The notes beneath the pieces are model-generated. The model did no database searches. It was not told the origin of the DNA and saw only the letters and a list, made by a program, of their open reading frames with translations. The translations under genes were made by a program, and so were the position numbers. 64,000 bases of DNA. Source: Pachyseris speciosa. Taxonomy: Eukaryota > Cnidaria > Anthozoa > Scleractinia > Pachyseridae. Within the stretch, counting starts at the first letter, position 1. Every line of letters starts with the position of its first letter. Positions 8,161 through 62,070 of this stretch are shown in pieces. The DNA lies in assembly GCA_016490735.1 (NCBI GenBank), contig JAEMWC010000005.1, forward strand, positions 142,001 to 206,000. The letters run 5' to 3'.

Positions 8161-11100
8161 ATGTCCGGAGCGGATCATGAACCGTCGAAAAAGCGACCTA
8201 AACTAATGCAAAATGAAAAAGAAGACGACAGAAGCAACCAGGTCAGAATACTAAAATTGTTTTTAATTCTTAAATTAGCGCCTTGTTAAGGTTTATGTTA
8301 TTACAATACTATAAAGCGCCTCGCCTCGAATTTAATTCAGGGGGAGAAACCAGAAGGGAGCAGGGTGGTACCCTAGTACCCTGGGAGTTTCTGCTTAGGG
8401 GTGCATCACTGGGATTCTCAAACTCTCCACATACTTGATCATTTCCAGCTAGGCAGGTCCATATTGTACCATCCCTCTTATGTCCCACACATCAACAAGA
8501 AATTTGCGTCAATTTCGAACAGGCTTGATTGGTGCTTAGGATGTAGTTCAAGGGATGTGAGGAAATCTTACCCAGCTACAGGACTTTAAACGCAGTGCCT
8601 ATAGACCTCTGAACTGTACTTGGACATGTACGGGGCTCATGGAGTAATTAGGGCAAACAGGATAGGAAATCCATATTTTATATGATGATTTTCAATTGAA
8701 GACATACATGTCATTTATATCAGTGGGCAGCGTGGCCAAGCGGGTGGAGTGCTGGACTTGCGAAGCCCTGCTCTGGTCGATGCTTGTTAATTAATAGCCA
8801 ACTGTTCTGCCTCCCTCCAATTGAGTTTGTTGAGTTTCAACTGTTATGTTATGTGAACCAGCTAGAGCAGCTAATTATAAACAAAGAATTTATAGTTTTT
8901 TTACTTTTGCATTTAATTTACATGTGTCTGTTTATGAAAGACAATGCTTTTGAAATTCAAGAAATGTATACAGAGGCATGTATTAATCACATCAATTATT
9001 TTAGACATCTTTGAATGTGGTAACATTTAATTTGATTAGATTTTCAACAAGAACTGCAAAAAATCACTATATTTCCTTATTTATCTTTATGCACCCATGA
9101 ACTAATTTCTTGAGTCATTGTATATATTTCCTTATTGCTTAATGATAATATTATATATAGTTTTTGTACTTACCGGCAAATAATATTTGAATTCGTTATT
9201 TGTTAAGTCAACTTACTTAACATTTAACACTTAAGGTTAATTTTATATTAATTTTTTTAAAATTACCGGTAATTAACCCATTGGCACCCGTGCCGGCCAA
9301 AACCAGCTGTAAAAAACTCCCATGCTTCAAAACATTGCAACTTTCTCAATCGCACGAATATTGCCTTAACTGTTAGTTGTGAGCACGAAATGGAATGCCC
9401 TTTAAATTAATTTTGGATATCCAATAAATGCAAGAAACGTAGCGATTTTTACCAAATATGGCCTTTTGAGTTTGGACAAGAACGAAACTGACCGTTTTTA
9501 ACGTCAAAGAGAAACAACAAAAATGCCCCTTTTTGCCTTCATGTTTTTTAAGGAAATCATCGCCGAAAAACCAAACCTCAACCATCATAACGAAATTCAG
9601 TCCTTTTTCTAGCTTAGAAATGCCTTTTTTTTTCATATTCTTCTCCCAAGCGTAGATACAGCCTTTTTTTCCAGTGCATTCGTGCCTTTCCGCCATTTTC
9701 AACATCTAGACCACATTGCATGCTGGGAAATGACGAGAAGTTTTGACAGCAACCATTCCTTCTCCCAATTCTTTCACATATAAACTAAGTCTACAGCCAC
9801 TCCGACCTACTGCCAAAAATTCCTGCTTGTGGTCATCTTCAGTACTCAGAAATTCCAAAATATGTGGCGGTAGGTCGAGAAATTCATCAATAGTCGAGTC
9901 CCAAAAGGTACTAAGTGTTCGACCGGCCAAATTCCCAGTTCTTCGAGTAACAAGCCAAATTCAACAACAAAGTACATCACCTTGCTCGATTCTTTGAGAA
10001 AGTGGACTCTTAGCTACCGTCACGCTTAATGATGCTCATCAGGCAGCCGCTAAAGATGAAAAATGGCTGTAAATTTAGCAGAAATCGCAAGCAAACCGAA
10101 CTTGGGCCATTGTTGTCGCTTCACGGATAAAAAATAGCTACGTCAAAATGACGTTTTCAGAAACCTTGAGCCTCCAGTGGCTTAGGACAGCACCACTTTT
10201 CCCTGGTAGTTCAAATAAAGAGTCACGAATTGCTATTCATCGTTTATAGGTGGGAAATCGCTCCGAAAATGTAAAAACAGCCAGTAGTCAATGGGTTAAC
10301 TAATTAATTTATTTATTTGTATACCCTAGTGTATGCCAAAGTGTGTAAAAAATCTGTGTTCTATATGCAAATTTCGAGTTCATAATTAAACCACAAAGCT
10401 ATCTTTTGCAATATTTGTCACTTATGGACACATCTGAAATGTACCCTACTTTCTCTTTCAGAATATAATGACTTGACGCATTCTCATGATGACTGGTATT
10501 GTTCTAACTGCCTCTCTGACACATTTCCTTTTAATCATTTTGATAGTGATACCGATTTCTTTTTTTTTCTTGTTAGATCTTCAATCTTCTTCCAATTTTG
10601 ACAGCTCTCTTTTGGGAACTAAATAATTTATTTCAATCCATTTTTGGAAGACCCTGATACTTATCAACTTCTTCTCAACTCTGACCTTGATCCTGACATC
10701 GATATGCTCTCATCAACTTCTCACTTACTATCTAGATGTACTTATATGAACAGTAGATAGTTCAATAATCTGTTTTTTGACTCCTCTAACTCCAACTGCT
10801 TCTCATTATTTCACTTGAATATACGCAGCTGTAAAAAACACTCTGTTGACCTAGAGGAATACCTCTCCACCTTAAATACATCTTTCTCAGCCATTGGCCT
10901 CTCTGAAACCTGGCTAGACACCTCTTCTAATGATTTGTATAGTATCCCCAGAACTATTTTTAAGACCTTTGGTTGGCTGGACATCTCAGACTAATTATGG
11001 GTGTCAGCGTGTTGTCAGCGTGTTTATTTTAAATGCATCTATTAACCATTATTTTTTAGGGAGCCATGGAACACTTGCTTCAAGAAATAGAAAAGTTACG

Positions 11101-13777
11101 AAAGATGTTGAGGAGTATTTTGGCTGAAGCCCAAGAAAATGCAAGGCAATCTACGGAGAACTTTGTTGCAGATAAAGTACGTAAAATGGGAGCGATGATA
11201 GGTCACTATTTTACAACATTTCAAGCTCTGAATGTCATGTCATGGAAGGGTATGGAGGAGGAAATAAGAAAGATGTACAGCCATGAAAGCATTCGTGATG
11301 CAGAAGAGGAACTTCTTCAGGCTGAAGATGAGTGGAATTCCTTCTTGGAGGGAATAGATGCTAAAATGGACCCTTCGCCAGATGTAAAAACTGAAGCAGA
11401 GCTTTCTGTTGGGTCGAATGGCCCCTGCGAACTCAAGTTAACTGATGTTTCTACAGAAAGGTGGGTATGCATACAGTGTGGCCGGTATTACTATCATGCA
11501 TACTCATGTTACAGCTTGGTGCATTTGCCACAAATTTATTGCCCTTGAGATGGGGGAGGGGTAGGGCATTTATTGTTTGACAGTTGTTTGTTTTTCCTTG
11601 TGATGATCAACTTGATATGCTTCATTCACATGGCTTCCATTTTGGTCAGAAACCACAAGTGAAACCAGTATAAAATAGAACTACCGGGACTGAAGATGTG
11701 AAAGAATGTCGCAATTGTAAACACTACTTGAGCAGTGGTAAAAAAAAATTAGGCTTGACGGGAGTGAAGAGAGTGACACCTGCTACTGTAGGTTGTTTTG
11801 TGTCACTTTCTGGGTTGTCCTATTGAGTGAAACATGCTAAGTCATTGACTTGTCACTACACCATCAGCAAGAGGTATCTCAGTAAAGGTTAAAATGTGGT
11901 CAACAAATACATTGAAGTCAAGGCTTGTCAACATCATAATCATTGCAATTACATGTATAACCTTTCTATAATTTTAAGTGCATGTACTTTGCTGGAAGCA
12001 TAAAGCAAACATAATATTTACTGGTAACTGTTGCTGTCTGTGAATCTGGGGTCTTCTGAGGATACAAGTTTGTTGACTAGTTAACAAAAAACTGACCATG
12101 CGAACTTTTTTTTTACAAGTTTTTTTGTTGTTGATGATGTTGATGTTAGGCACATGTCTGTACAAGACCTCTTAACCTCGACATCCACAGTCCTGATTCT
12201 TCTGCGGCATTTTGCTTGACTGCCATGACGTGACCATGTGGCCCAACTTCAGCATCACAGGGCAGAATTTGAGTCTCAGAATGGACAAGTCATAGTTGTA
12301 AGCTTTGGAAATGTGGTAAGAATAATTACATGTATACTCTTTGCTGTAATACGAGTAGACGTTACAGCTATTCCATAAGCGCAGTTTGGATATTACATGG
12401 CAGACAGCATATGCCAAGATGACGATACATACAAAAAGCACAGGTGAACTAAATACAACCGAGAGGTGCTACTGGTTTTTCCAAGAAAATAACAGAAGGA
12501 AACTTATGTGACAAACTTCATCAAAAATGGTATAATTGCTGATGTCCCATGTCCGCTAAGCCAATATAAATTCTAGAATTGTCTTATCTAATGCTCCAGT
12601 TTTTAATGGGAAAAGAAAAGGGCAGAGCATTGAAAATGGTCAGACCTTTTCATAGTTTGGATGAACTCACCAAAATTCTCACCATCGATGTTATAAAAGT
12701 ACTGCTGGGTTGACAGTTGGTTTTAATAACGACGATTGAGCAACTCCTGGATGGTTTTCAGTCGAGCATCGAAAGAAGTTCTCCTTTGCTCCCGGGAGTG
12801 GAGGGGGGGGGGGGGGGGGGGGAGTACTCCCTATAATGGCCTGTACGGGGAGGCTCCGCCCGAAGGGGGTACCTTTTTCACGCTTTAGGTATATGAGAGG
12901 GTAGGGATTTCATGAGTCAAAGTATATGAAAGAGTAGGGTAATTTGTCATTTAGGTATTTAAAAGGGCCTTTCATTAAAATATTTCGAACACATACCTTA
13001 TGACTGTACGAAGGGGTACTATTTGTCAATGGAAGGTATATGAAAGGGGTACCTTTTCTGTCAAAAATGGTATATAAAAGGATAATGGGTCAGACCTCCG
13101 CGCTGAGCCTCCCCGTATAAATTTTTTTTCGTACCCCCTTCCCTGGGCGTTTGCTTAGGTTTTGCTTTTCTTTGCTCCGCTGTGATTGGTTGGCAAAACC
13201 TGCGCCACTTTCTCAACAAATGAGAAGCAAAACCCAAACCCAATCGCGACTTGCTTTCGAGCATTTTCCCGCGCTTGACGCCGGTTACATGTAATTGCTT
13301 CGATTTCTGATTGGTTCATTGCTTTGTCTGAGTCTGTTGTGATTGACTAAAGTAATTGCTTTGGTTTTGGTTGTACGACACTCAGTTGAAACTCTCAACT
13401 CTTTCCTCGTTCAAAACTGGCAGGATGGAGCAAGGAAATGGCTTCAAGACACCAAATGTGAGTTCAGAATGTTCATTGACCCTGAGCGTAAGCTGTACCG
13501 TTCCCTCGGACTCAAACGATCAGTGGCGAAAGTATGGAGCATCCCCGCCCTTGTTTATTACGCCGAACAGAAGCGCGCAGGACGCAAGCTTGCGGCGATG
13601 TTCGACGAAGATGACCCCACCCAGATGGGAGGAGATTTTGTGTTAGACGAGCACGGAAAACTGGCGCTTGTTCATCGCAGTAAGGTGTCGACTGATAGGC
13701 CTGCAGTGGAGGCACTCTTAGAATGCGTTAGGGGACTTAACGAAGTGAAGACAAAAACGTGTAAAACTAGAATTTAA
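8161..13777 (+). CDS. SELENOL: Selenoprotein L-like, UxxU thioredoxin-fold/peroxiredoxin-like protein
   Basis: Four exons with GT-AG borders and matching phases: 8161-8241, 11060-11460, 12150-12315 and 13424-13777, giving 334 codons with stop. An in-frame TGA upstream of the ATG supports the start. Residues 1-160 are charged and helical (LLQEIEKLRKML) and unrecognised. From about residue 163 the protein reads as an AhpC/TSA_2-type thioredoxin fold: LILLRHFA, then TGA-L-P-TGA (residues 184 and 187), then RDHVAQL, QVIVVSFGNV, DGARKWLQDT, DPERKLYRSLGLKRS and MGGDFVLD. Conserved coding sequence continues in frame after both TGAs, so I read them as selenocysteine. SelL is a known family of aquatic animals whose two selenocysteines form a diselenide in a redox UxxU motif. 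A SECIS-like hairpin lies downstream at 14664-14732. The substrate is unknown. Confidence 0.86.
8725..8900 (+). mobile_element. tRNA-derived SINE fragment
   Basis: The start contains GGCAGCGTGGCCAAGCGGG, a good internal A-box-like tRNA head, followed by TGGAGTGCTGGACTTGCGAAG. The continuation (gatgcttgttaatt, tagccaactg, ttgcctccctcc-like) is SINE body. The B box is missing or degraded, so this is a decayed copy. It lies in intron 1 of the SelL-like gene. Confidence 0.5.
9277..10295. mobile_element. piggyBac-like element with TTAA target duplication
   Basis: The element starts CCCATTG after TTAA (9273-9276) and ends CAATGGG before TTAA (10296-10299). TTAA duplication with CCC/GGG termini is the piggyBac pattern. 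At ~1.02 kb it is too short for a full transposase. Minus-strand ORFs near 9373-9930 (one contains FLDLPPHILEFLSTEDD) are intact for 70-110 residues but match no transposase I recognise. It sits in SelL intron 1. Confidence 0.62.
10335..10985 (+). mobile_element. LINE 5' fragment: PHD-like finger and AP-endonuclease start
   Basis: Around 10415-10530 a frame gives CHLWTHLKC and DWYCSNC, the second half of a PHD-type zinc finger as found in CR1-like LINE proteins. Further on (10800-10970) frames give LFHLNIRSCKKHSVDLEEYL and AIGLSETWLD, the first motifs of a LINE apurinic endonuclease. Several frameshifts and stops break it. It ends about 75 bases before SelL exon 2. Confidence 0.6.
12150..12315 (+). 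other. SELENOL: Selenocysteine-bearing exon 3 of the SelL-like gene
   Basis: The exon follows GATGTTAG and ends GTG|GTAAGA. In the frame set by exon 2 it runs across TGA at 12217-12219, CTG CCA, then TGA at 12226-12228, and stays open to the donor. The residues on both sides (LRHFA before, RDHVAQL after) are the expected redox-motif flanks. No single standard ORF spans this exon, so conventional annotation would end the protein at residue 183 or skip it. Confidence 0.85.
12797..13148. repeat. GTACTCCC/GTACCCCC-bounded dispersed repeat with poly-G
   Basis: A run of G (12798-12821) leads into AGTACTCCCTATAATGGCC. The interior repeats 'ggtatatgaaagggta' variants, and the right edge is the inverted GGCTCAGCG...CGTACCCCC arrangement. 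'GGGGAGGCTCCGCCC' near the left and 'GAGCCTCCCCGTATAA' near the right are inverted. It sits in SelL intron 3. Confidence 0.6.
13150..13410 (+). repeat. Dispersed repeat ending just before SelL exon 4
   Basis: The 3' part 'taattgctttggttttggtt..acgacactca' recurs at 49619-49655 inside the GPCR intron, so this is an interspersed repeat. It contains several ATTGGTT motifs. It ends ~15-40 bases before the exon 4 acceptor at 13421-13423. Confidence 0.5.
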
Positions 13778-13877
13778 CGCGATAATGTATTTTTGAAAGA
13801 TATAGCCAAACCCCATTAGTACAGACGCCTGTCGGTTAGAAAACTTTCTATAATTACGGAGTGGCTTTATTAGTAAT

Positions 13878-14345
13878 GGTAATAGGACTGAGTGGAGTCC
13901 AATTCGGTCTGTAATCATACGAGTGATAACAAAATCGCGCGGTCGTCCGATTTGTTTATCATGAGTATGATTACAGACCGAATTGGACGACACGAAGTCT
14001 TATTACCAATTAATTGATCCTAAAAATTACAATTTCCAAGAAAAGAGGAAGAGCCAAGTTATAAAAGGGAAGGAAATTTTGCATTAAAAGACTGACAAAG
14101 GAAGCGTAAATTGTTTAATGTCGCAGGCTCTGAAATTGACTACGATCAAAATGTATGGTGATTGTAACCAAGGTTGTGATGGTTGATTTAAACTACAACT
14201 TTGAATGTGATTCGTTGATTTAAAATACTACTTTGAATGTGATTGGCTTATTGAATTGTCCGATAACAACTTGACACGTGAATTAGTGGAAAATAGGAGT
14301 TTTTTAAACCAATCACGATCGAGGAAATTGTAATTTTTATGATTA
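13878..14345 (+). mobile_element. Composite hairpin/MITE, copy 1
   Basis: The first part (13878-14007) is a foldback: GGTAATAGGACT..GTCCAATTCGGTCTGTAATCAT on the left, its inverse on the right. The second part (14015-14345) has inverted ends TAAAAATTACAATTTCC and GGAAATTGTAATTTTTA. An inverted copy of the whole arrangement lies at 33321-33811, so the two parts move together. It is in the 3' UTR of the SelL-like gene. Confidence 0.65.
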
Positions 14346-14663
14346 AGCGTGGTATTTTAACGACAGTCTATGGATCGAGAACTAGAAAACTGCTTGCGAT
14401 TGCAGATGCCCAAATCCGCAAACTTAATGCGAGAGTCTCCCATCGCGGTTTTGTATGCAACTCAAGTACAGTCTGTAGTTGCGAAAAGAAGCTTGAAGCT
14501 TGTTGCAGTAATCTATTATCGGTCATACTTCTCATCTGCTGCTCACAGACGTACTATGTTTCGCTTTTATGAGTTGTTCACAAAACAGTGTTTCTCAGTG
14601 TGCCCGCAGTCAGTCAGCGTAAAACCGTCGGTGGAAACTTTTGCATCATATCAAGCTCATGGG

Positions 14664-14732
14664 TATAGCGGAAAAAAATGACGGCTGTGACTGAAACCAA
14701 AGATAAGGTCACTGCTTGAAGAGAAAGCTATA
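14664..14732 (+). promoter_or_regulatory. SECIS element (selenocysteine insertion)
   Basis: The basal stem TATAGC (14664-14669) pairs perfectly with GCTATA (14727-14732). The 5' quartet side is ATGA (14678-14681) and the 3' side is TGA (14717-14719), allowing the tandem non-Watson-Crick G-A pairs. Between them GTGACT (14687-14692) pairs with GGTCAC (14707-14712), and GGC faces GCT. The apical loop starts with AAA, 12 bases after the quartet, the canonical spacing. It lies ~890 bases after the SelL stop codon, on the same strand. Confidence 0.85.
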
Positions 14733-14878
14733 AACTTGAGCTCCGCGATATGCTTGCAACAAAGCCTTGCGGCAAATGAAAGGCAAATTTCTAAATCATG
14801 AATTTCTTCATTTTACTTTGTTCCCTCTCTAAATAGCTAAGTTTCCACCAGCCACGCATTCTCAAAAAATAACATGGT

Positions 14879-14884
14879 AATAAA
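14879..14884 (+). promoter_or_regulatory. Candidate polyadenylation signal for the SelL-like gene
   Basis: AATAAA, about 147 bases past the SECIS, on the coding strand. It is the first such hexamer I see after the SECIS. Confidence 0.45.
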
Positions 14885-15157
14885 CTGAAACGTTTGCTCA
14901 ATGAAAAGAAAACTTTGATTCATATGGTTGTATAGTTTGCATGACGGGCGCTAGAAAGGCGAGAGGAAGTTGGAAAATACGGCGCTCGAGGGGAGCGCGG
15001 CCATTATGAAGACCAACTAGCGAACATTTGAGAAGAAAATTCAAGAAAGAGTTTCATCTTTACCGAGTAAGAAACCTGAATAATAAAGAAGCACATTTCC
15101 AGAACATAACGGTTTTTTATTTCCACTGAGACACTTTCTTTCATTAGTACCTGATGC

Positions 15158-15228
15158 GCTTTAGGAGGGGGGTGAATAGGTTCGCGGATCGACGGATTTC
15201 CTGACCCCTATTCACCCCCCTCCTTTAG
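15158..15228. repeat. Short GC-rich hairpin
   Basis: GGAGGGGGGTGAATAGG near the left is inverted as CCTATTCACCCCCCTCC at the right, with a ~25-base loop. The role is unknown; it may be a degenerate MITE. Confidence 0.5.
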
Positions 15229-15446: not shown

Positions 15447-16364
15447 TACCGGTCTTAACACTAAAGATAAAGATGTTCCCTCTTGAGGAAAATTAATCGG
15501 TATTTTCTGTCAAAACGCTTTGACTGAAGGCGACAGTGAATCACCGAATTATTTTGTGCCTCGGTGATAACAGCAAAATCTGCAGGTGAAATAATATCTT
15601 CATGAGACGCTTAGTCATATCACTTTACTTCTCGAGTTGTGAGGAAAAAATATGGATGCCAACACAATTTGGATGACCACTGACCAAAGCTTACCGTCTT
15701 TTCTTTATTTGGTAATGGTTTGTCATCGGTATTCTGGTTCGGTTTAAGACGCTGCGCACCTTTGCTAACATTCTGTTAGCGAGCTTATCGCTTGCAAACT
15801 TTCTCAACGCGTTGATCAACATGCCCCTGTTTTTACTGGACGGTGTTTTAAAGAAGCTCTGGTACAGGGGAAAGCAACTAGCGATTATTACTCTTTACAG
15901 CTGGCTGACCCTTCTTAATCCCGCTTCCATGTTGATGTTACTAATCAACGTGTCACCTGAAATATTTTACCTGGAAGACGAATAAGAGACTGAGCTATCT
16001 TCATAGCCCTCGTTCAATGGTTCGTCTGTATTGTCTTGGACTTGTTGTCAGTTTTGCCTTTCCTTGATGCTGACCTTCATAACGGTGATGTCTTGAAGTA
16101 TCGCCAGCTGTTTTTCCGCCAAGGAAAATCATTTTTGGCTTTATTTATGATATTGTTTATCATAGCTGCCGTAGTATTGATCGATTACTCAGCGCGAAGA
16201 CAGACATTGAAGGTAATTAAAGCTAGAAGAATTGTTACAATAGTCCGGTTTACCGTACTTTTCTTAACAAATTAAAAATGTAGCACTGAAGAACTGTGCA
16301 TTATTTTTCGGCTACAAATTTTTATAAGCGGCTTCTAGTCTGAAAACGGGCTCGTGTAAGCACC

Positions 16365-18208: not shown

Positions 18209-18234
<26 letters not shown>

Positions 18235-18282
18235 ATCGCACCGGTAATCGCGAGGTCACGGGTTCAAACCCCGTTGAAGTCC
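18209..18282 (+). tRNA. tRNA-like gene (Thr-GGT-like), probably SINE head
   Basis: The acceptor GGCTTCA pairs with TGAAGTC, the D stem GCTC with GAGC, and the T arm ACGGG-TTCAAAC-CCCGT is perfect. The A box (TAGCTCAGTTGG) and B box (GGTTCAAAC) are intact. The anticodon arm is TCGCA-CCGGTAA-TCGCG; GGT (Thr) would be the anticodon, but the stem does not pair and position 33 is C, not T. With its SINE body and a second copy alongside, it is more likely a tRNA-derived promoter than a working tRNA. Confidence 0.55.
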
Positions 18283-18458: not shown

Positions 18459-18484
<26 letters not shown>

Positions 18485-18532
18485 ATCGCACCGGTGATCG
18501 CGAGGTCACGGGTTCAAACCCCGTTGAAGTCC
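18459..18532 (+). tRNA. tRNA-like gene, second tandem copy
   Basis: Same structure as the copy 250 bases upstream, differing in the anticodon loop (CCGGTGA in place of CCGGTAA). Acceptor, D and T arms pair; the anticodon stem does not. Probably the head of a second SINE. Confidence 0.52.
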
Positions 18533-23899: not shown

Positions 23900-25479
23900 G
23901 ATGATGATGGTTTGGGGTCATAGAAAACCGGTTAGGGGTCATAGAAAACCGGTTTGGGTTCATTTAAAACTGGTTTTGGGTGAGGGAAAATGGTTGGGGG
24001 TCAGGGAAAACCGGTTGGGCACGCGTAAAACCGGTTTGGGGTCAAGGAAAACCGGTTTGGGGTAAGGGAAAACTGGTTTGGTATCAGGGAAAACTGTTTT
24101 GGGATCAGAGAAAACTGGTTTGGGGTCATAGAAAACTGGTGTGGGGTCAGGGAAAACCGGTTTGGGTTCAGGTAAAACTGGTTTGGGGTCAGGAAAAACT
24201 GGCTTGGGGTCATAGAAAACTGGTTTGGGGTCTGGGAAAACCGGTTTGGGGTCAGGGAAAACCGGTTTGGGGTCAGGGAAAACAGGTTTGGGTTCAGGTA
24301 AAACGGGTTTGGGGTCGGGGAAAACCGGTTTGGGGTCAAGGAAAACTGGTTTGGGTTAAGGGAAAACAGGTTTGCGTTCAGGTAAAACCGGTTTGGGGTC
24401 AAGGAAAACTGGTTTGGGTTCAGGGAAAACCGGTTTGGGGTTGGGGAAAACTGGTTTGTGCTCAGAGTAACCTGGTTTGGGGTCAGGGAAAACTGGTTTG
24501 TGCTCAGAGTAACCTGGTTTGGGGTCAGGGAAAACTGGTTTGGGGTCAGGGAAAACAGGTTTGGGTTCAGGTAAAACCGGTTTGGGGTAAGAGAAAACCT
24601 GTTTGGGGTCAGGCAAAACTGGTTTGGGTTTAGGAAAAACCAGTTTGGGGTCGGGGAAAACTGGTTTTTGTTCAGGGTAAACTGGTTTGGGGTGAGGGAA
24701 AACTGGTTTGGGGTCAGGGAAAACCGGTTTGGGTTCAGGTAAACCTGGTTTGGGGTCTGGGAAAACTGGTTTGGGGTCATAGAAAACCGGTTTGGGGTCA
24801 GGGAAAACCGGTTTGGGGTCAGGGAAAACAGGTTTGGGTTCAGGTAAAACCGGTTTGGGGTGAGGGAAAACCGGTTTGAGGTTGGGTAAGACTGGTTTGT
24901 GCTCAGGGTTAACTGGTTTGGGGTGAGGGAAAACTCGTTTGGGGTCAGTTAAAACCGGTTTGGGTTCAGGTAAAACCGGTTTGGGGTGAGGGAAAACCGG
25001 TTTGGGGTTGGGTAAGACTGGTTTGTGCTCAGGGTAAACTGGTTTGGGGTGAGGGAAAACTCGTTTGGGGTCAGTGAAAACCGGTTTGGTGTCAAGTAAA
25101 ACCGGTTTGGGTTCAGGTAAAACAGGTTTGGGGTGAGGGAAAACTGGTTTGGGATCAGGTAAAACTGGTTTGGGGTCAGGGAAAACTGGTTTGGGATCAG
25201 AGAAAACTGGTTTGTGGTCATAGAAAACCGGTTTGGGGTCAGGGAAAACCGGTTTGGGTTCAGTTAAAACTGGTTTTGGGTGAGGGAAACTGGTTGGGGG
25301 TCAGGGAAAACCGGTTTGGGCACACGTAAAACCGGTTTGGGGTCAGGGAAAACCGGTTTGGGGTCAGGGAAAACTGGTTTGGGATCAGAGAAAACTGGTT
25401 TGGGGTCATAGAAAACCGGTGTGGGGTCAGAGAAAACCGGTTTGGGTTCAGGTAAAACTGGTTTGGGGTCAGGGAAAAC
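23900..25479. repeat. 21-bp minisatellite array 1
   Basis: About 75 tandem 21-base units of consensus AAAACCGGTTTGGGGTCAGGG, with variants GGGTTCAGGT, GGGGTGAGGG and TGCTCAGGGTA. Because 21 is a multiple of 3 and the unit lacks stops in several frames, long ORFs run on both strands (up to ~260 residues of N-P-N-x-F-S-L-T-P type). These are by-products. The array follows GPCR fragment B and stops abruptly at block d. Confidence 0.92.
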
Positions 25480-29118: not shown

Positions 29119-31097
29119 TCTGGTTTGGGATCAGAGAAAACCGGTTTGGGGTCAGGGAAAACCGGTTTGGTGTCCGGTAAAACCGGTTTGGGTTCAGGGA
29201 AAACCGGTTTGGTGTCAGGTAAAACCGGTTTGGGTTCAGGTAACACCGGTTTAGGGTGAGAGAAAACTGGTTTGGGATCAGAGAAAACCGGTTTGGGGTC
29301 AGGGAAAACCGGTTTGGTGTCAGGTAAAACCGGTTTGGGTTCACGTAAAACTGGTTTGGGGTGAGAGAAAACTGGTTTGGGATAAGAGAAAACCGGTTTG
29401 GGGTCAGGGAAAACAGGTTTCGTGTCAGGTAAAACCGGTTTGGTTTCAGGTAAAACTGGTTTGGGGTCAGAAAAAAACTGGTTTGGGTTCTGGTAAAACT
29501 GGTTTGGGGTCAGGTAAAACCGGTTTGGGTTAAGGTAAAACCGGTTTGGGGTCAGGGAAAACTTGTTTGGGGTCAGGGAAAACTGGTTAGGTGTCAGGTA
29601 AAACATGTTTGGCTTCAGGTAAACCCGGTTTGGGGTCAGGAAAACCAGTTTGGGTTGTGGTAAAACTGGTTTGGTGTCAAATAAAACCGGTTTGGATTCA
29701 GGTAAAACCGGTTTGGGGTGATTGAAAACTGGTTTGGGATCAGAGAAAACAAGTTTGGGGTCAGAAAAACCGGTTTGGGGGTCAGGTAAAACTGGTTTGG
29801 GTTCAGGGAAAACCGGTTTGGTTTCAGGGAAAACCGGTTTGGTGTAAGAGAAAACTTGTTTGGGGTCAGGGATAACTGGTTTGGGATCAGAGAAAACCGG
29901 TTTGGGGTCAGGGAAAACCGGTTTGGTGTCAGGTAAAACCGGTTTGGGTTCAGAGAAAACCGGTTTGGGTTCAGGGAAAACCGGTTTGGTGTCAGATTAA
30001 ACCGGTTTGGGTTCAAGTAAAACTTGTTTGGGATCAGGGAAAAGCGGTTTGGTGTCAGGTAAAAGCAGTTTGGGTTCAGGTAAAATTGGTTTGGGGTCAG
30101 GGAAAACTTGTTTGGGGTCAGAGAAAACCGGTTTGGGTTCAGGTAAAACTGGTTTGGGGTCAGGGAAAACTGCTTTGGGATCAGAGAAAACCGGTTTGGG
30201 GTCAGGGAAAACCGGTTTGGGGTGAGAGAAAACTGGTTTGGGATCAGAGATAACCGGTTTGGGTTCAGGTAAAACCGGTTTGGTGTCAGGTAAAACCGGT
30301 GTGGGTTGAGGTAAAACCGCTTTGGGTTGAGGTAAAACCGGTTTTGGGTGAGAGAAAACTGGTTTGGGAGCAGAGAAAACCGGTTTGGGTTCAGGGAAAA
30401 CCGGTTTGGCGTCAGGTAAAACCGGTTTGGGTTCAGGTAAAACTGGTTAGGGGTCAGGGAAAACTTGTTTGGGGTGAGGGAAAACCGGTTTGAGTTCAAG
30501 TAAAACTGGTAAGTGGTCAGGGAAAACTCCTTTGGGATCAGAGAAAACCGGTTTGGGGTCAGCAAAGACCGGTTTGGTGTCAGGTAAAACCCGTTTGGGT
30601 TCAGCGAAAACCGGTTTGGTGTCAGGTAAAACCGGTTTGGGTTCGGGGAAAGCCAGTTTGGTGTGAGGGAAAACCAGTTTGGGGTGAGAGAAAACTGGTT
30701 TAAGATCAGAGATAACCGGTTTGGTGTCAGGTAAAACCGGTTTGGGTTCAGGTAAAACCGGTTTTGGGTGAGAGAAAACTGGTTTCGGATCAGAGAAAAC
30801 CGGTTTGGGGTCAGGGAAAACAGGTTTGGTGTCAGGTAAAACCGGTTTGGGTTCAGCTAAAACTGGTTAGGGGTGAGGGAAAACTTGTTTGGGGTCAGGG
30901 AAAACCGGTTTGGTGTCAGGGAAAACCGGTTTGGGTTCAGGTAAAACCGGTTTGGGGTGAGGGAAAACCGGTTTGGGTTATGGTAAAACTGGGTTGGGGT
31001 CAGGTAAAACCGGTTTGTTTTCAGGTAAAACCGGTTTGGGGTGAGGGAAAACTGGTTTGGGATCAGAGAAAACCGGTTTGTGGTCAGGGAAAACCGG
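29119..31097. repeat. 21-bp minisatellite array 2
   Basis: About 94 units of the same 21-base family as array 1, with more GGTGTCAGGT and GGGATCAGAG variants. The centre AAACCGGTTT is a perfect 10-base palindrome in most units. ORFs to 309 residues on the minus strand are by-products. The array is cut at 31097 by the left arm of a large inverted repeat. Confidence 0.92.
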
Positions 31098-31640
31098 TAT
31101 AAAAATTTCGGAAAATTTGAAAAAAATTCTGTGGACTACCCTAGGTATTCTATTAATGAAAATATAAATTTTACTTTCATCGGATGAATATTTTTGTTCA
31201 TATGGATGGTGTCAAGTTCGGGTCCTGTATAACCTCTGCCAGATCGTTTTTTCGAGGTCCTAGACCGGGCTACGGTAAGAGCTCAATTTGAATCTAATTG
31301 AAAATCATTCAAACTACAAAGCTTCTTATCACATTTAAGAGATTTAAACACGCATTTTGAGTGGTCGTGCCCTGGAATTGATTGCGACTAGAATATTTTA
31401 CAGATTTTTAAATATTTACAAAATTTTGAGGATTTCGCGGAAGGAAAATTTTGTCGAAATTCGAAGGCCAAAAATCACACCCGGTACCTAATTTCAAACA
31501 ACAAAAACCATTCTACATTAAAAAGCAATCTCGAAGCTTTCAAAATATGTTTTTGAAACGTTGGGCAACATATGAAATGAATTTTTGGGAACGCGAAATT
31601 CACGGAGCACTTGAGTGAAATTTGACCCTTCTGACTTGAC

Positions 31641-48265: not shown

Positions 48266-50395
48266 TCACGGTATGACACGGGGCTCTTCAGTCTCTGGCG
48301 CGACTTTCCTCCTAGTAGCACCCTGTCTTGTGATATTACGTGGAGCATCTTGTGGGGGCGTTTGCTCTTTCTTTCTTTCTGGGGAGGGACATCTTCCACA
48401 GGGATCTTTAAGAAGCTGTTTCAGAGCCGTGCGAAATCTTCTGGTTCGGAAATAACTGATGATGGGATTGATTCCACTGGAGACAAAAATGCTGAATTGG
48501 GCCAAGAACCCAGGCCATCCAGCATAACTGGCATCGTGCTTTACACGGCCCCACGCCGCGAACATTATGAATGGGATATAACACAGCAAGAATGCAGAAA
48601 CTATTATCGCTACAGTTTTGGCAGCTCGGGTATCCATCTTGAGTCGCGCCTCAGCTTGGAGTTGCGGCAGGTTTAGGCGATCTCTCTGCAATAAGGAACA
48701 TACTGGAATTAACGGTACTATCTGTGCCAGGACAAGTTAACAAGCCAACATCCCTAGAAAAAAGAATTGACGCACGCCACGAGAAAGAGGCAGTGGGAAC
48801 TATGTGAGAAGGCTATAGTAGCAGGATATTTTATAAGTGCATCAAACGGCCTTTCCCAAAGAAGAGATAGAAAGGCGAATTTTGGGGGAACCTTATATTT
48901 TAAGCAACAGGCACTTTTCTGGAGTACGCGGATGGAAAGTGAGAACGTTGAATCGTTTACACCAACAACAAACATTGTCCTTTACTTGAAATTTTAAGCG
49001 AACCGAAGAGGGTTTAACTGTGAAAAGATAAAAGAAATACATCTAGCTTTTAACGTATATTCCCCTCGACTTGACAGCTATATGGTTTTGGCGAATTATA
49101 GAGGTAGATTTATTTCTGAGAATGAATACATGAAAACCATATATTTGAACTGCGGATTAATGATTAAATATGTGAATGAGCATCGCAGTTATGAACACTA
49201 CTTAGGTAGCAGTGAAGCCTGAAAATAAAAAATTCCCGTAATAGCCTGAATTTTTTTAGAGCTTTAGTTTCACTGCTACCTAAGTAGTGGTCATAACTGC
49301 GATGCTCATTCACATATTTAATAGATTTATTTCTGTTACAAAAACGCGATGTAAGATCAAGATTCACAACAACTGAGGCACGGCTGTGGAACCCTGATTT
49401 CTGCTGTTTCTAGACATCAATAACAACAAAACAAGTTCCTTATCCTGAAGATGTTTGAAAATGGTTTCTATTACATAAAACTACTTATGAGAATCTTAAG
49501 AAAACTGGCACCCAAACTAAGGTAGAGCAAAGAAGGTAAAAAAAATGCAAGAGCGCCCTTTTTCCCGCGGTTTGATTAGTTTGCTTGCGCTTTACGCGTC
49601 TGTCGAGATTGGCCAGAGTAATTGCTTTGGTTTTGGTTTTACGACACTCAAGTTAAAATCGTTCTAAAAATTGTTATAAATTTTCTAAGATTCTTCAGTT
49701 CTATTTACCTGTAACTTCCTTCGTCGCACTGAGTAAACTACCAGGACACCAAATATTACGGCAGCTATGACAAACATTAACGTAAATAAAGCCAAAAATG
49801 ACTTTCCTTGGTGGAAAAACAGCTGGCGATACTTCAATACATGACCGTTGTGAAGTTCAGCATCAAGGAAAGGCAAAATGGTTAAAAAGACTAATAGAAC
49901 ACAGAGGAACCACTGAAGAAGGACTATAAACATGGCTTTTCCCTTTGTCTTCCAAGTAAAATATCTCAGGTCAAATCTTATCGCCAGAAACGCGTTGATT
50001 AGTAACACCAACATGGAGGCGAGATTGAGAAGGATGAACAGCCGGCTAAAATAACAAGTAGCAATCGCAAGTTTCTTTCCCTCGAACACACTTATTTCTA
50101 AAACGCCGTACAGTGCGAACAGTGGCATGTTGATGAACGCGTTGAGAAAATCAGCAAGCGATAAGCTTGCTAACAGTATGTTAGGAAAGGTGTGCAGCTT
50201 CTTAAACGAAGCCATGATCCCGATTACCAAGCCATTTCCAAACAGTGAACAGATGGCCAGCGAGGTGATGAGTGCAACCATCCCAATTTGGTCGGTATGC
50301 ATCCTTGTTCTGAGGACTTCAGAGAATGCTAAGACGTGATTTCTAGGACATAATTTCAACCATAAATCTTGAAAATGTTGCCGTAAAGAGGACAC
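48266..50395 (-). CDS. Class A (rhodopsin-like) GPCR, intact, DRY-less
   Basis: Two exons: 50395-49709 (donor CAG|GTAAAT) and 48685-48266 (acceptor TTATTGCAG), phase 0, 368 residues. Seven membrane segments: helix 1 with GNGLVIGIM (Asn1.50), helix 2 LSLADFL (Asp2.50), helix 3 ASMLVLLINAFLAIRF, helix 4 FIVLLQWFLCVLL, helix 5 LFTLMFVIAAVIFGVLVVY, helix 6 IIVSAFLLCYIPF and helix 7 SSGINPIIS. The D/E-R-Y at the end of helix 3 is absent (INAF-LAIRF), helix 6 has CYIP in place of CWxP, and NPxxY is NPIIS. The helix 7/8 boundary RTRRFRTALKQLL is normal. The ligand is unknown; the sequence suggests an orphan, lineage-specific family. Paralog remnants surround it. Confidence 0.85.
48692..49700 (-). 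other. Intron of the intact GPCR, with foldback and shared repeats
   Basis: Contains a foldback (49165-49321) and the 'taattgctttggttttggttttacg' repeat also seen before SelL exon 4. No coding exon is seen. Confidence 0.5.
49165..49321. repeat. Foldback element
   Basis: TGTGAATGAGCATCGCAGTT..ACTACTTAGGTAGCAGTGAA (49170-49217) is inverted at 49268-49317. The loop contains GAAGCCTGAAAATAAAAAATTC and CCTGAATTTTTTTAG, echoing the SINE body at 18061-18080. Confidence 0.68.
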
Positions 50396-50439
50396 AACAT
50401 GCTACCTTGTCGAAGAAAAAGATTTTGGCGATTGAAAGC

Positions 50440-59556: not shown

Positions 59557-60935
59557 TTAGCGGTAGATTAGTGGCTCAATGTTTTTTCTGTAATAAAGTG
59601 TGTATTGAAAAGACGCAGCTTTACATATGTTATTAATGTGTGGTATCATACTCATGTTCTGGTCAAAGCATGATCCCAAGTTCGTAACTGAAGTTACGGG
59701 AGCTATAATGCTCTCAACAACACTAAGACCATCAATGTTCACTTTAGCCAGTTGCTGTCTGGTGCCTATAATCATCAACTCCGTCTTACTATCATTCAGG
59801 CGTAGTTTGTCCTTGATCATCCACGATCGAATAGCCTGTATGCAATGCTCCATTGCCTCAACTGCGTCGTTTTGCGAACAAGCTGAGTCAGCATTGAATG
59901 ATAGATACAGCTGAGTATCGTCTGCGTATGCATGCGATTGTGGTAGATAGTTCTTAATAACCTTAAAAAGCTTACTCGCATACATAGTAAACAGCAGTGG
60001 ACCTAGGCATGATCCTTGAGGAACACCGCATTGCAAATTGAACTTCTTCGATAAATTTTGGTCAAAAGACACGCGCTGCGATCTGTTGAGAAGGTAGGAT
60101 GTAAACCACTGCAATGCCGATCCCCTGACTCCAAAGCTCGTACTGAGGCGATTCAATAACACTCCATGGTCAACTGTGTCAAACGCTGCGCTCAAATCAA
60201 GTAACGCAAGAAGGGTCACACGTTGAGAATCCAAGTTCATTAGGATGTCATTTTGCACTTTTAAAAGTGCAGTCTCAGTGCTGTGACACTTACGGTACGC
60301 TGACTGGAATGGAGGGTATAAGCCATGTGATGTCAAATGTGCATGCATTTGATCGAAGACGGCACGTTCCGTTAATTTTGAAACGTACTGCAAATTAGAC
60401 ACAGGTCTTAAGTTTGTAAACTCTGAAAGCATGCCAGACTTTTTGAGCAGAGGGGAAACTAACGCCTCCTTCCAGCAATCAGGAAATTCACCAGATTTAA
60501 GGGAAAAGTTAATTATGCGTGTAATGACCGGAAATAGAACATCAAGACAGGAGACCACAAGCGACGTTGGAGCTGGATCAAGTGGACAAGATTTTTTTGC
60601 AGATTGTCGGACAAGCTTCAGGACTTCGTCCTCACTGAGAGGATGGAAAGCATACAGTGCTTTTTCCGGGCCAACTTTTGGATCCTCCGGTACACGGAGG
60701 TACACGTTGCACGGGAGGTGACGGCCTTGTCAATATCCGAACGGATGGATTCTATTTTGCGGATAAAAAATTTCCCGATGTCATTCACAAGAACAGATTT
60801 ATCCACATAGTCGGGAAAAGACGGCACTTCCTTCTTAGCCAGCAGCTTCTTTGCTGCCCTAAATAACTTCCCTTGATCCATGCTATTCTCCGCAATAAAG
60901 TTAGTATAGAAGTCCTTTTTTGCAGCATTTATCAT
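59557..60935 (-). pseudogene. LINE reverse transcriptase domain
   Basis: Linker frame 60935-60618 (AAKKDFYTNFI, KLFRAAKKLLAKKE) shifts into the RT frame 60705-59557. Motifs: LVSPLLKKSG, NLRPVSNLQYVSKLTERAVF, FQSAYRKCHSTETALLKV, LALLDLSAAFDTVDH (first catalytic Asp), CGVPQGSCLGPLLF, HAYADDTQLY (YADD catalytic pair) and LNDSKTELM. All catalytic motifs look intact, but no continuous protein connects them to the endonuclease or the C-terminus. Confidence 0.9.
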
Positions 60936-61169
60936 GTAAGTTACACGATTTCTACGACTTTAAAAGCAAAAAGGTCTTCTTGTCGGCCAGTTTTCCGCCA
61001 CCGCCTTTCCGCTTTTCTCCTAAGACGTTTAGCAGCCCCTATTTCAGCGGTGTACCAGGGAACGGAAGGGCGTGCCTTCAAAGTCTTGGATTTCAGTCGA
61101 ACATGACAGTCGATCAGCATGCGCAAAGTGGAATTATAGTCCTTTGCAAGTTTATCAACACCATATACA

Positions 61170-62070
61170 GGTGTTTCCGTTGTCAAAGATGATTGACATA
61201 AAGATGTCTCCAAGTCATTCTTAAACGACTCCATGTCTATTGATCGATATTTCCTATAAGTAACCAGCTTTTCCACTGCTGGAGGTTTCTTTGGAATCAA
61301 CCTACAGCAGACTGACGCATGATCTGAAATAAACCGGTCAACTTTAGGTGGAGCTGCTAGAACGATCTCAGAGCAACGAGTGATTATAAGGTCGAGGGTG
61401 TGGCCCTCCATGTTGGTGCTGCCCTTTACGTGCTGTTTAAGCCCGAATGATTCGAGCAGATCTGCAAATTTTATGGCATCAGAGTCCCGCGGATTATCGA
61501 CGTGGATGTTAAAGTCTCCAACGAATAAAATTTGCTCTTTAGACAGAAGAACTGATTCGAGATGATCTGAAAATTCCCTTAAGAAGACAGTTGTTGGGAC
61601 CTTGCGTTTATCAGAGTATGGTGGTCGATAGATTATAAACAAGCGAATACAGTAACTGACCGTAGTCATAGTCCACTCAGAGAATTCAAAGGAGCTCTTC
61701 TCGCCCGCTTCAACTTTCTTAACACGCAGGAGTCAAGGTAGATGAGACCCGTTCCGCCGCCACACCGACCCTCCCATGGGTGGTCAAAAAAATTATACCC
61801 GTCCGGGTTCAACTCCGCTCTTACAGCAGCATCATTCTCCTTAAGCCAAGTTTCCGTTATTGCAAAAAGGTCAAATTTGCAATCGCATAGGTAGTCCATA
61901 ACCAGCGCTGACTTATTCCTTACTAACCCGGCGTTTAATAAGCACAGGGACAGAGGACCCAGCTCGCGATGGCTTACATACACAGGGAGTCCAGAACATT
62001 GTACATACTTAAGGTTCAGAGAGTTACGTGACGATCTATTTTCTAGCCTTGTGTCAGCACGCATCGTCAC
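61170..62070 (-). pseudogene. LINE apurinic/apyrimidinic endonuclease domain
   Basis: First frame (62070-61666): LCLLNAGLVRNKSALVMDYL, DLFAITETWLKEND and CGGGTGLIY, the N-terminal half of the fold including the catalytic Glu in ITETWL. After a frameshift near 61700, the second frame gives FIIYRPP, ILFVGDFNIHVD, HTLDLIITR and ISDHASV, with the catalytic Asp-x-Asn and terminal SDH motifs. The nuclease nicks target DNA for target-primed reverse transcription. Broken by the frameshift. Confidence 0.85.

Follow-up and report, generated by a model that had tools for sequence, protein, structure and literature searches.

The locus that we examined, in a 64-kb stretch of the Pachyseris speciosa genome (hereafter the window), raises the question of whether two TGA codons lying three codons apart in an otherwise open frame end a gene or encode selenocysteine (Sec). 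The initial annotation of this DNA had proposed a hidden redox gene of the selenoprotein L (SelL) family with a UxxU motif. We conclude, with a probability of about 96%, that the gene is a cnidarian SelL of 333 residues, composed of a helical N-terminal part and a peroxiredoxin-like domain, with a Sec-Leu-Pro-Sec motif that would be decoded with the aid of a SECIS element.

To define the gene, we followed its frame across the candidate exons and found that a single frame runs through four GT-AG exons for 333 codons and is interrupted by the TGAs at 12217 and 12226 and nowhere else (Table 1). These borders, phases and the length of the frame agree with the earlier proposal of one frame shared by exons 2, 3 and 4, and the two TGAs sit in that frame at the spacing claimed. 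Exon 2 ends in phase 2 and exons 2 and 3 sum to 567 nt, so exon 4 is entered in phase 0; the alternative frames of exon 3 hold two stops in one case and four in the other. Of ten relatives that end at LLRHFA, the residues just before the first TGA, nine open with MS and the tenth has MS at residue 4-5, in alignment with exon 1. The same annotation had held that a standard ORF scan would show the last exon only; the gene does appear in pieces in the stop-to-stop ORF list, but exon 2 is listed there too, as a frame separate from the last exon. Sequence search for polyadenylation signals returned further AATAAA/ATTAAA matches at 14083 and 15082. Shortly past the gene, at ~15163-15227, an inverted repeat with arms of ~18 bases (AGGAGGGGGGTGAATAGG) was noted by eye.

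Table 1. Features of the predicted SelL gene, in window coordinates
Feature	Position	Strand	Details
Exon 1 coding part, ATG at 8161	8161..8241	+	27 codons, phase 0, GT donor after 8241
Exon 2, helical N-terminal domain	11060..11460	+	401 nt, AG/GT borders
Exon 3, start of thioredoxin-like domain and UxxU motif	12150..12315	+	166 nt; AG/GT borders, frame, conserved flanks
First predicted Sec of U-L-P-U (TGA, codon 184)	12217..12219	+	Aligns with Cys, Trp or TGA in relatives
Second predicted Sec of U-L-P-U (TGA, codon 187)	12226..12228	+	Aligns with Cys, Trp or TGA in relatives
Exon 4 coding part	13424..13777	+	True stop TAA 13775-13777; Pfam AhpC-TSA_2 at residues 194-303
SECIS-like hairpin with basal helices, 3'UTR	14647..14752	+	Minimum-energy fold
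SECIS-like core: AUGAC and UGAA quartet strands, helix II, apical AAA	14678..14720	+	Strict and loose scans
Polyadenylation signal AATAAA, probable transcript end	14879..14884	+	Sequence search

To determine whether the frame is conserved across the TGAs, we searched protein databases separately with the residues on either side of them. The upstream query matched 40 protein clusters, 10 of which end exactly at LLRHFA; these ten homologues fall in separate 90% clusters and include entries from Oculina patagonica (179 aa) and Porites lobata (186 aa). RHFA was found in none of the remaining 30 upstream relatives, all of which end before that site, many of them in residues resembling intron read-through. 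The downstream query matched 52 protein clusters: nine begin directly after the motif, the starts of most others lie deeper in the sequence or consist of unrelated residues, and one (P0103) begins SCREH, perhaps within the motif. Species names among the downstream matches are Exaiptasia diaphana and Nematostella vectensis, and every named species among the half-protein matches is cnidarian (Oculina, Porites, Exaiptasia, Nematostella). The ten ends at the first TGA, taken with the downstream matches, indicate that both the stop position and the sequence behind it have been kept. The flanks are conserved in relatives on both sides of the TGAs, as had been claimed, and together with the ten homologues they confirm, at the level of sequence, that the frame across the TGAs is more than chance.

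These annotated halves could also be taken at face value, with the first TGA as a true stop that closes a helical 183-residue protein and the downstream part, if used, carried on a separate transcript; the Oculina patagonica and Porites lobata entries that end in LLRHFA, and the Exaiptasia and Nematostella entries that start downstream, have just this form. However, the two halves make up one conserved thioredoxin-like domain that sea star, fish and bacteria possess in full, a SECIS-like element lies downstream, and truncation at Sec codons is usual for standard gene callers according to PMC3473315, which makes a true stop very unlikely. A Porites evermanni gene model (P0143) skips the TGA exon altogether, a shape expected if that exon were spliced out and the product of exons 2 and 4 were the working form. 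The gap in P0143 is bridged by unrelated residues, though, joining exon 2 (401 nt) to exon 4 breaks the frame in Pachyseris, and the product would lose the active site along with some of the fold's core; we consider such a form exceedingly improbable. Under the SelL reading, the locus supplies a whole gene with a likely SECIS, whereas the public cnidarian entries found here are halves, those of Oculina and Porites lobata stopping at the first TGA and those of Exaiptasia and Nematostella starting after the second. Repairing such halves would alter redox gene counts for corals and anemones.

We next asked to which family the product belongs. With X placed at both TGAs, it matches AhpC-TSA_2 (PF13911) with an E value of 9.9e-17 over residues 194-303 and also AhpC-TSA (3e-08). 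A database search with residues 155-330 returned 51 relatives: a protein designated P0001 (78% identity over the domain), a sea-star protein (47%) and 49 others, all of which span at least 80% of the query and come from fish wherever a species is named. Three of these are called selenoprotein L; a search of this region against SelL proteins was among the checks first suggested. Homologs lacking UxxU or CxxC had been named as evidence that would count against the proposal; we found Cys-Cys at the TGA columns in 50 of the 51 relatives, where the Cys of the fish and sea-star rows may be Sec in the source, as the search tool prints Sec as Cys. The exception, P0001, carries Trp-Trp (W-x-x-W). Its 309 residues form an uninterrupted frame and its contig is no longer than 1082 bases, which means that P0001 derives from spliced sequence; it aligns across all three exon junctions, differing slightly in length close to the first. 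Because gene callers that read TGA as Trp print Trp, the Trp pair fits two TGAs, and TGA codons probably lie behind the W-x-x-W of P0001. A scan of viral contigs found no relative.

A SECIS element recruits the Sec insertion machinery, which comprises SBP2, eEFSec and tRNA-Sec. In the 3'UTR of the gene we found a predicted, SECIS-like element, whose core has AUGAC at 14678, UGAA at 14717, helix II between them, an AAA that opens the apical loop, and lower helices; it lies 901 nt past the stop and ~1353 nt past the first UGA in the mRNA. An unconstrained fold of 14645-14755 forms the core helices (-30.1 kcal/mol, z -3.31), and 1 of 200 shuffles folds as well as the hairpin. In a strict SECIS scan of both strands of the 64 kb, the core was the sole match; 7 of 10 whole-window shuffles also give one match, so a single strict match per 64 kb is unsurprising and the weight rests on its sense-strand position in this 3'UTR. 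Shuffles of the 3'UTR itself gave a match in 6 of 200 cases, and in 1 of 200 when a six-pair lower helix was demanded as well. The core ranked first of 14 in a loose scan, by energy as well as by the number of helix II pairs that form, and a looser closing strand with unchanged pairing thresholds returned three places. The scan was tuned after the candidate had been spotted by eye; an earlier version, which set helix II one base early, missed the core and returned three places, none of them in the 3'UTR. Rfam SECIS models matched nowhere in the window at the gathering score, nor at E values up to 5 over 13700-15100. Rfam matches to a group I intron and to a baculovirus family in the 3'UTR scored far under their cut-offs and were set aside. 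One SECIS is described in PMC3316567 as serving both Secs of SelL.

At the level of the genome, the assembly contains three tRNA-Sec genes (77.8-79 bits, anticodon TCA); a fourth match above the tRNA-Sec cut-off is a tRNA-Ser. An exon-level PF13911 search of the 984-Mb assembly found one place, the SelL gene itself, and thus no intact sister copy was seen in this exon-wise search. The window also holds two tRNA genes of ambiguous identity on the plus strand, at 18209-18282 and 18459-18532 (Rfam 51.4 and 50.5 bits), for which ARAGORN reports the four-letter anticodons ggta and ggtg. Two arrays of largely the same 21-base unit occupy 23908-25479 and 29122-31098 (75 and 94 copies, ~80% match); they contain long minus-strand open frames of KPVFPDP-like repeats, and GC skew is strong over 24-32 kb. 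Pieces of rhodopsin-family receptor genes (7tm_1) lie on the minus strand at 42427-42885, 48269-48736 and 49688-50401, the last alone exceeding the Pfam cut-off, and a similar-looking piece was noted by eye on the plus strand at ~15780-16210. A LINE-type element with reverse transcriptase and endonuclease domains covers 59560-61732 on the minus strand, and a frame at 38569-39691 resembles a reverse transcriptase by eye, its first part having no Pfam match.

To explore the motif beyond animals, we scanned prokaryotes, one genome per species, with two patterns drawn from an animal alignment, and found 31 loci. The first pattern asks for Cys at redox position one and the second lies far downstream, so Sec forms could enter through the second only. 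One locus (L032) falls short of the motif and was omitted from the motif count and the tree. Among the 30 aligned loci (L002-L031), the motif reads TGA-x-x-Cys in 26, TGA-x-x-TGA in three and Cys-x-x-Cys in one, placing TGA at the first position in 29 of 30 relatives from at least five phyla (Chloroflexota, Planctomycetota, Actinomycetota, Gemmatimonadota and Latescibacterota). The three TGA-x-x-TGA loci (L003, L004 and L008) are all from Chloroflexota, with the motif set in RHFA-x-LP-x-REH. TGA at the same positions in bacteria is the strongest support obtained here for Sec coding in the coral gene.

These data also bear on whether the coral gene might be a pseudogene, that is, a decayed Cys-type peroxiredoxin-like gene with two nonsense mutations. 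Such a history would account for in-frame stops where Cys is printed at both positions in all but one of the domain relatives; by contrast, it would not be expected to leave 333 codons free of any further stop or frameshift, the shared end of ten relatives at the first TGA position, TGA at the same places in bacterial relatives and a single PF13911 place in the exon-wise search of the assembly. The probability of decay is, in our estimation, negligible.

To compare the histories of the two redox positions, we built a tree of 42 rows comprising the 30 bacterial loci, the coral gene, P0001, P0002, four fish-labelled rows (among them P0029, which carries no species name) and five unclassified rows (P0095, P0098 and P0101-P0103). 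The animals and three unclassified rows group with a UxxC protein of Anaerolineaceae (98/94), and the three UxxU Chloroflexota sit elsewhere, among UxxC kin; the root is a midpoint root, 14 of its 39 internal branches stay open, and each of the fish, sea-star and unclassified rows may have either Sec or Cys. The separate places of the animals and the UxxU Chloroflexota hint at repeated gain, and it is conceivable, although we hold it somewhat doubtful, that a UxxC ancestor gave rise to the second Sec on two or more occasions, one being in the line of animal SelL and another in Chloroflexota. If so, the diselenide active site would have arisen in parallel, favoured for its own sake. The CxxC, UxxC and UxxU states of the bacteria form a small natural series on the value of a diselenide site.

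Together, the AhpC-TSA_2 domain, the three fish relatives named selenoprotein L, the TGA pair, the SECIS-like element and the tRNA-Sec genes make a cnidarian SelL the best reading of this locus, as the initial annotation had proposed. For this SelL reading, sequence itself provides the gene model, its conservation, the SECIS-like structure and the tRNA-Sec genes. In the mechanism that we envisage, the 3'UTR hairpin would bring in the Sec insertion machinery and ribosomes would decode both UGAs as Sec. The two selenols of the coral protein would then be oxidized to a diselenide and reduced again, in the kind of thiol/selenol redox cycle that has been reported for SelL.

SelL has been recorded in cnidarians before: in PMC3473315 (Table 1), Nematostella, a sponge, a placozoan, an annelid and amphioxus are each credited with one SelL, and a mollusc with none. 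Since SelL is listed for Nematostella, the coral gene belongs to a known family, to which it adds a member. Ciona SelL is known from ESTs (PMC2874816), and PMC2397514 describes SelL as having a diselenide bond and as confined to aquatic organisms, marine bacteria included. Among the matches listed in a search of the coral selenoprotein literature, no title or opening of an abstract concerned SelL.

The coral product resembles SelL of fish and of aquatic invertebrates, Nematostella vectensis included, in its peroxiredoxin-like domain, in redox residues three codons apart, in its N-terminal extension and in a 3'UTR SECIS, here predicted. It differs from the fish SelL rows (36-43% identity) in having U-L-P-U within RHFA..RDH, whereas fish mostly have C-L-L-C within RQFS..RLH, in which Cys may stand for Sec. 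The sea-star relative was modelled with a mean pLDDT of 87.5; its N-terminal part is a helical domain, and in its thioredoxin-like domain CLPC (164-167) runs into a helix at 165-176. The PDB folds that match it best are peroxiredoxins and human prostamide/prostaglandin F synthase (PGFS) with C44/C47, including 9usa, whose title, C44S/C47S mutant, points to a CxxC site; by sequence, the PGFS chain 9us9 (E 4.2e-05) was the sole match at E values up to 0.01. The coral product shares a domain match with PGFS and other AhpC-TSA_2 (PF13911) proteins, but theirs have Cys rather than Sec, and the 198-residue 9us9 chain is too short to hold the coral's helical N-terminal domain. Bacterial loci are mostly UxxC, unlike the coral gene, and ~25-36% identical to the sea-star protein that served as query. 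They share with the coral gene TGA at the same motif positions, and they may belong to the Prx-like family that PMC13188914 lists with both UxxC and UxxU forms.
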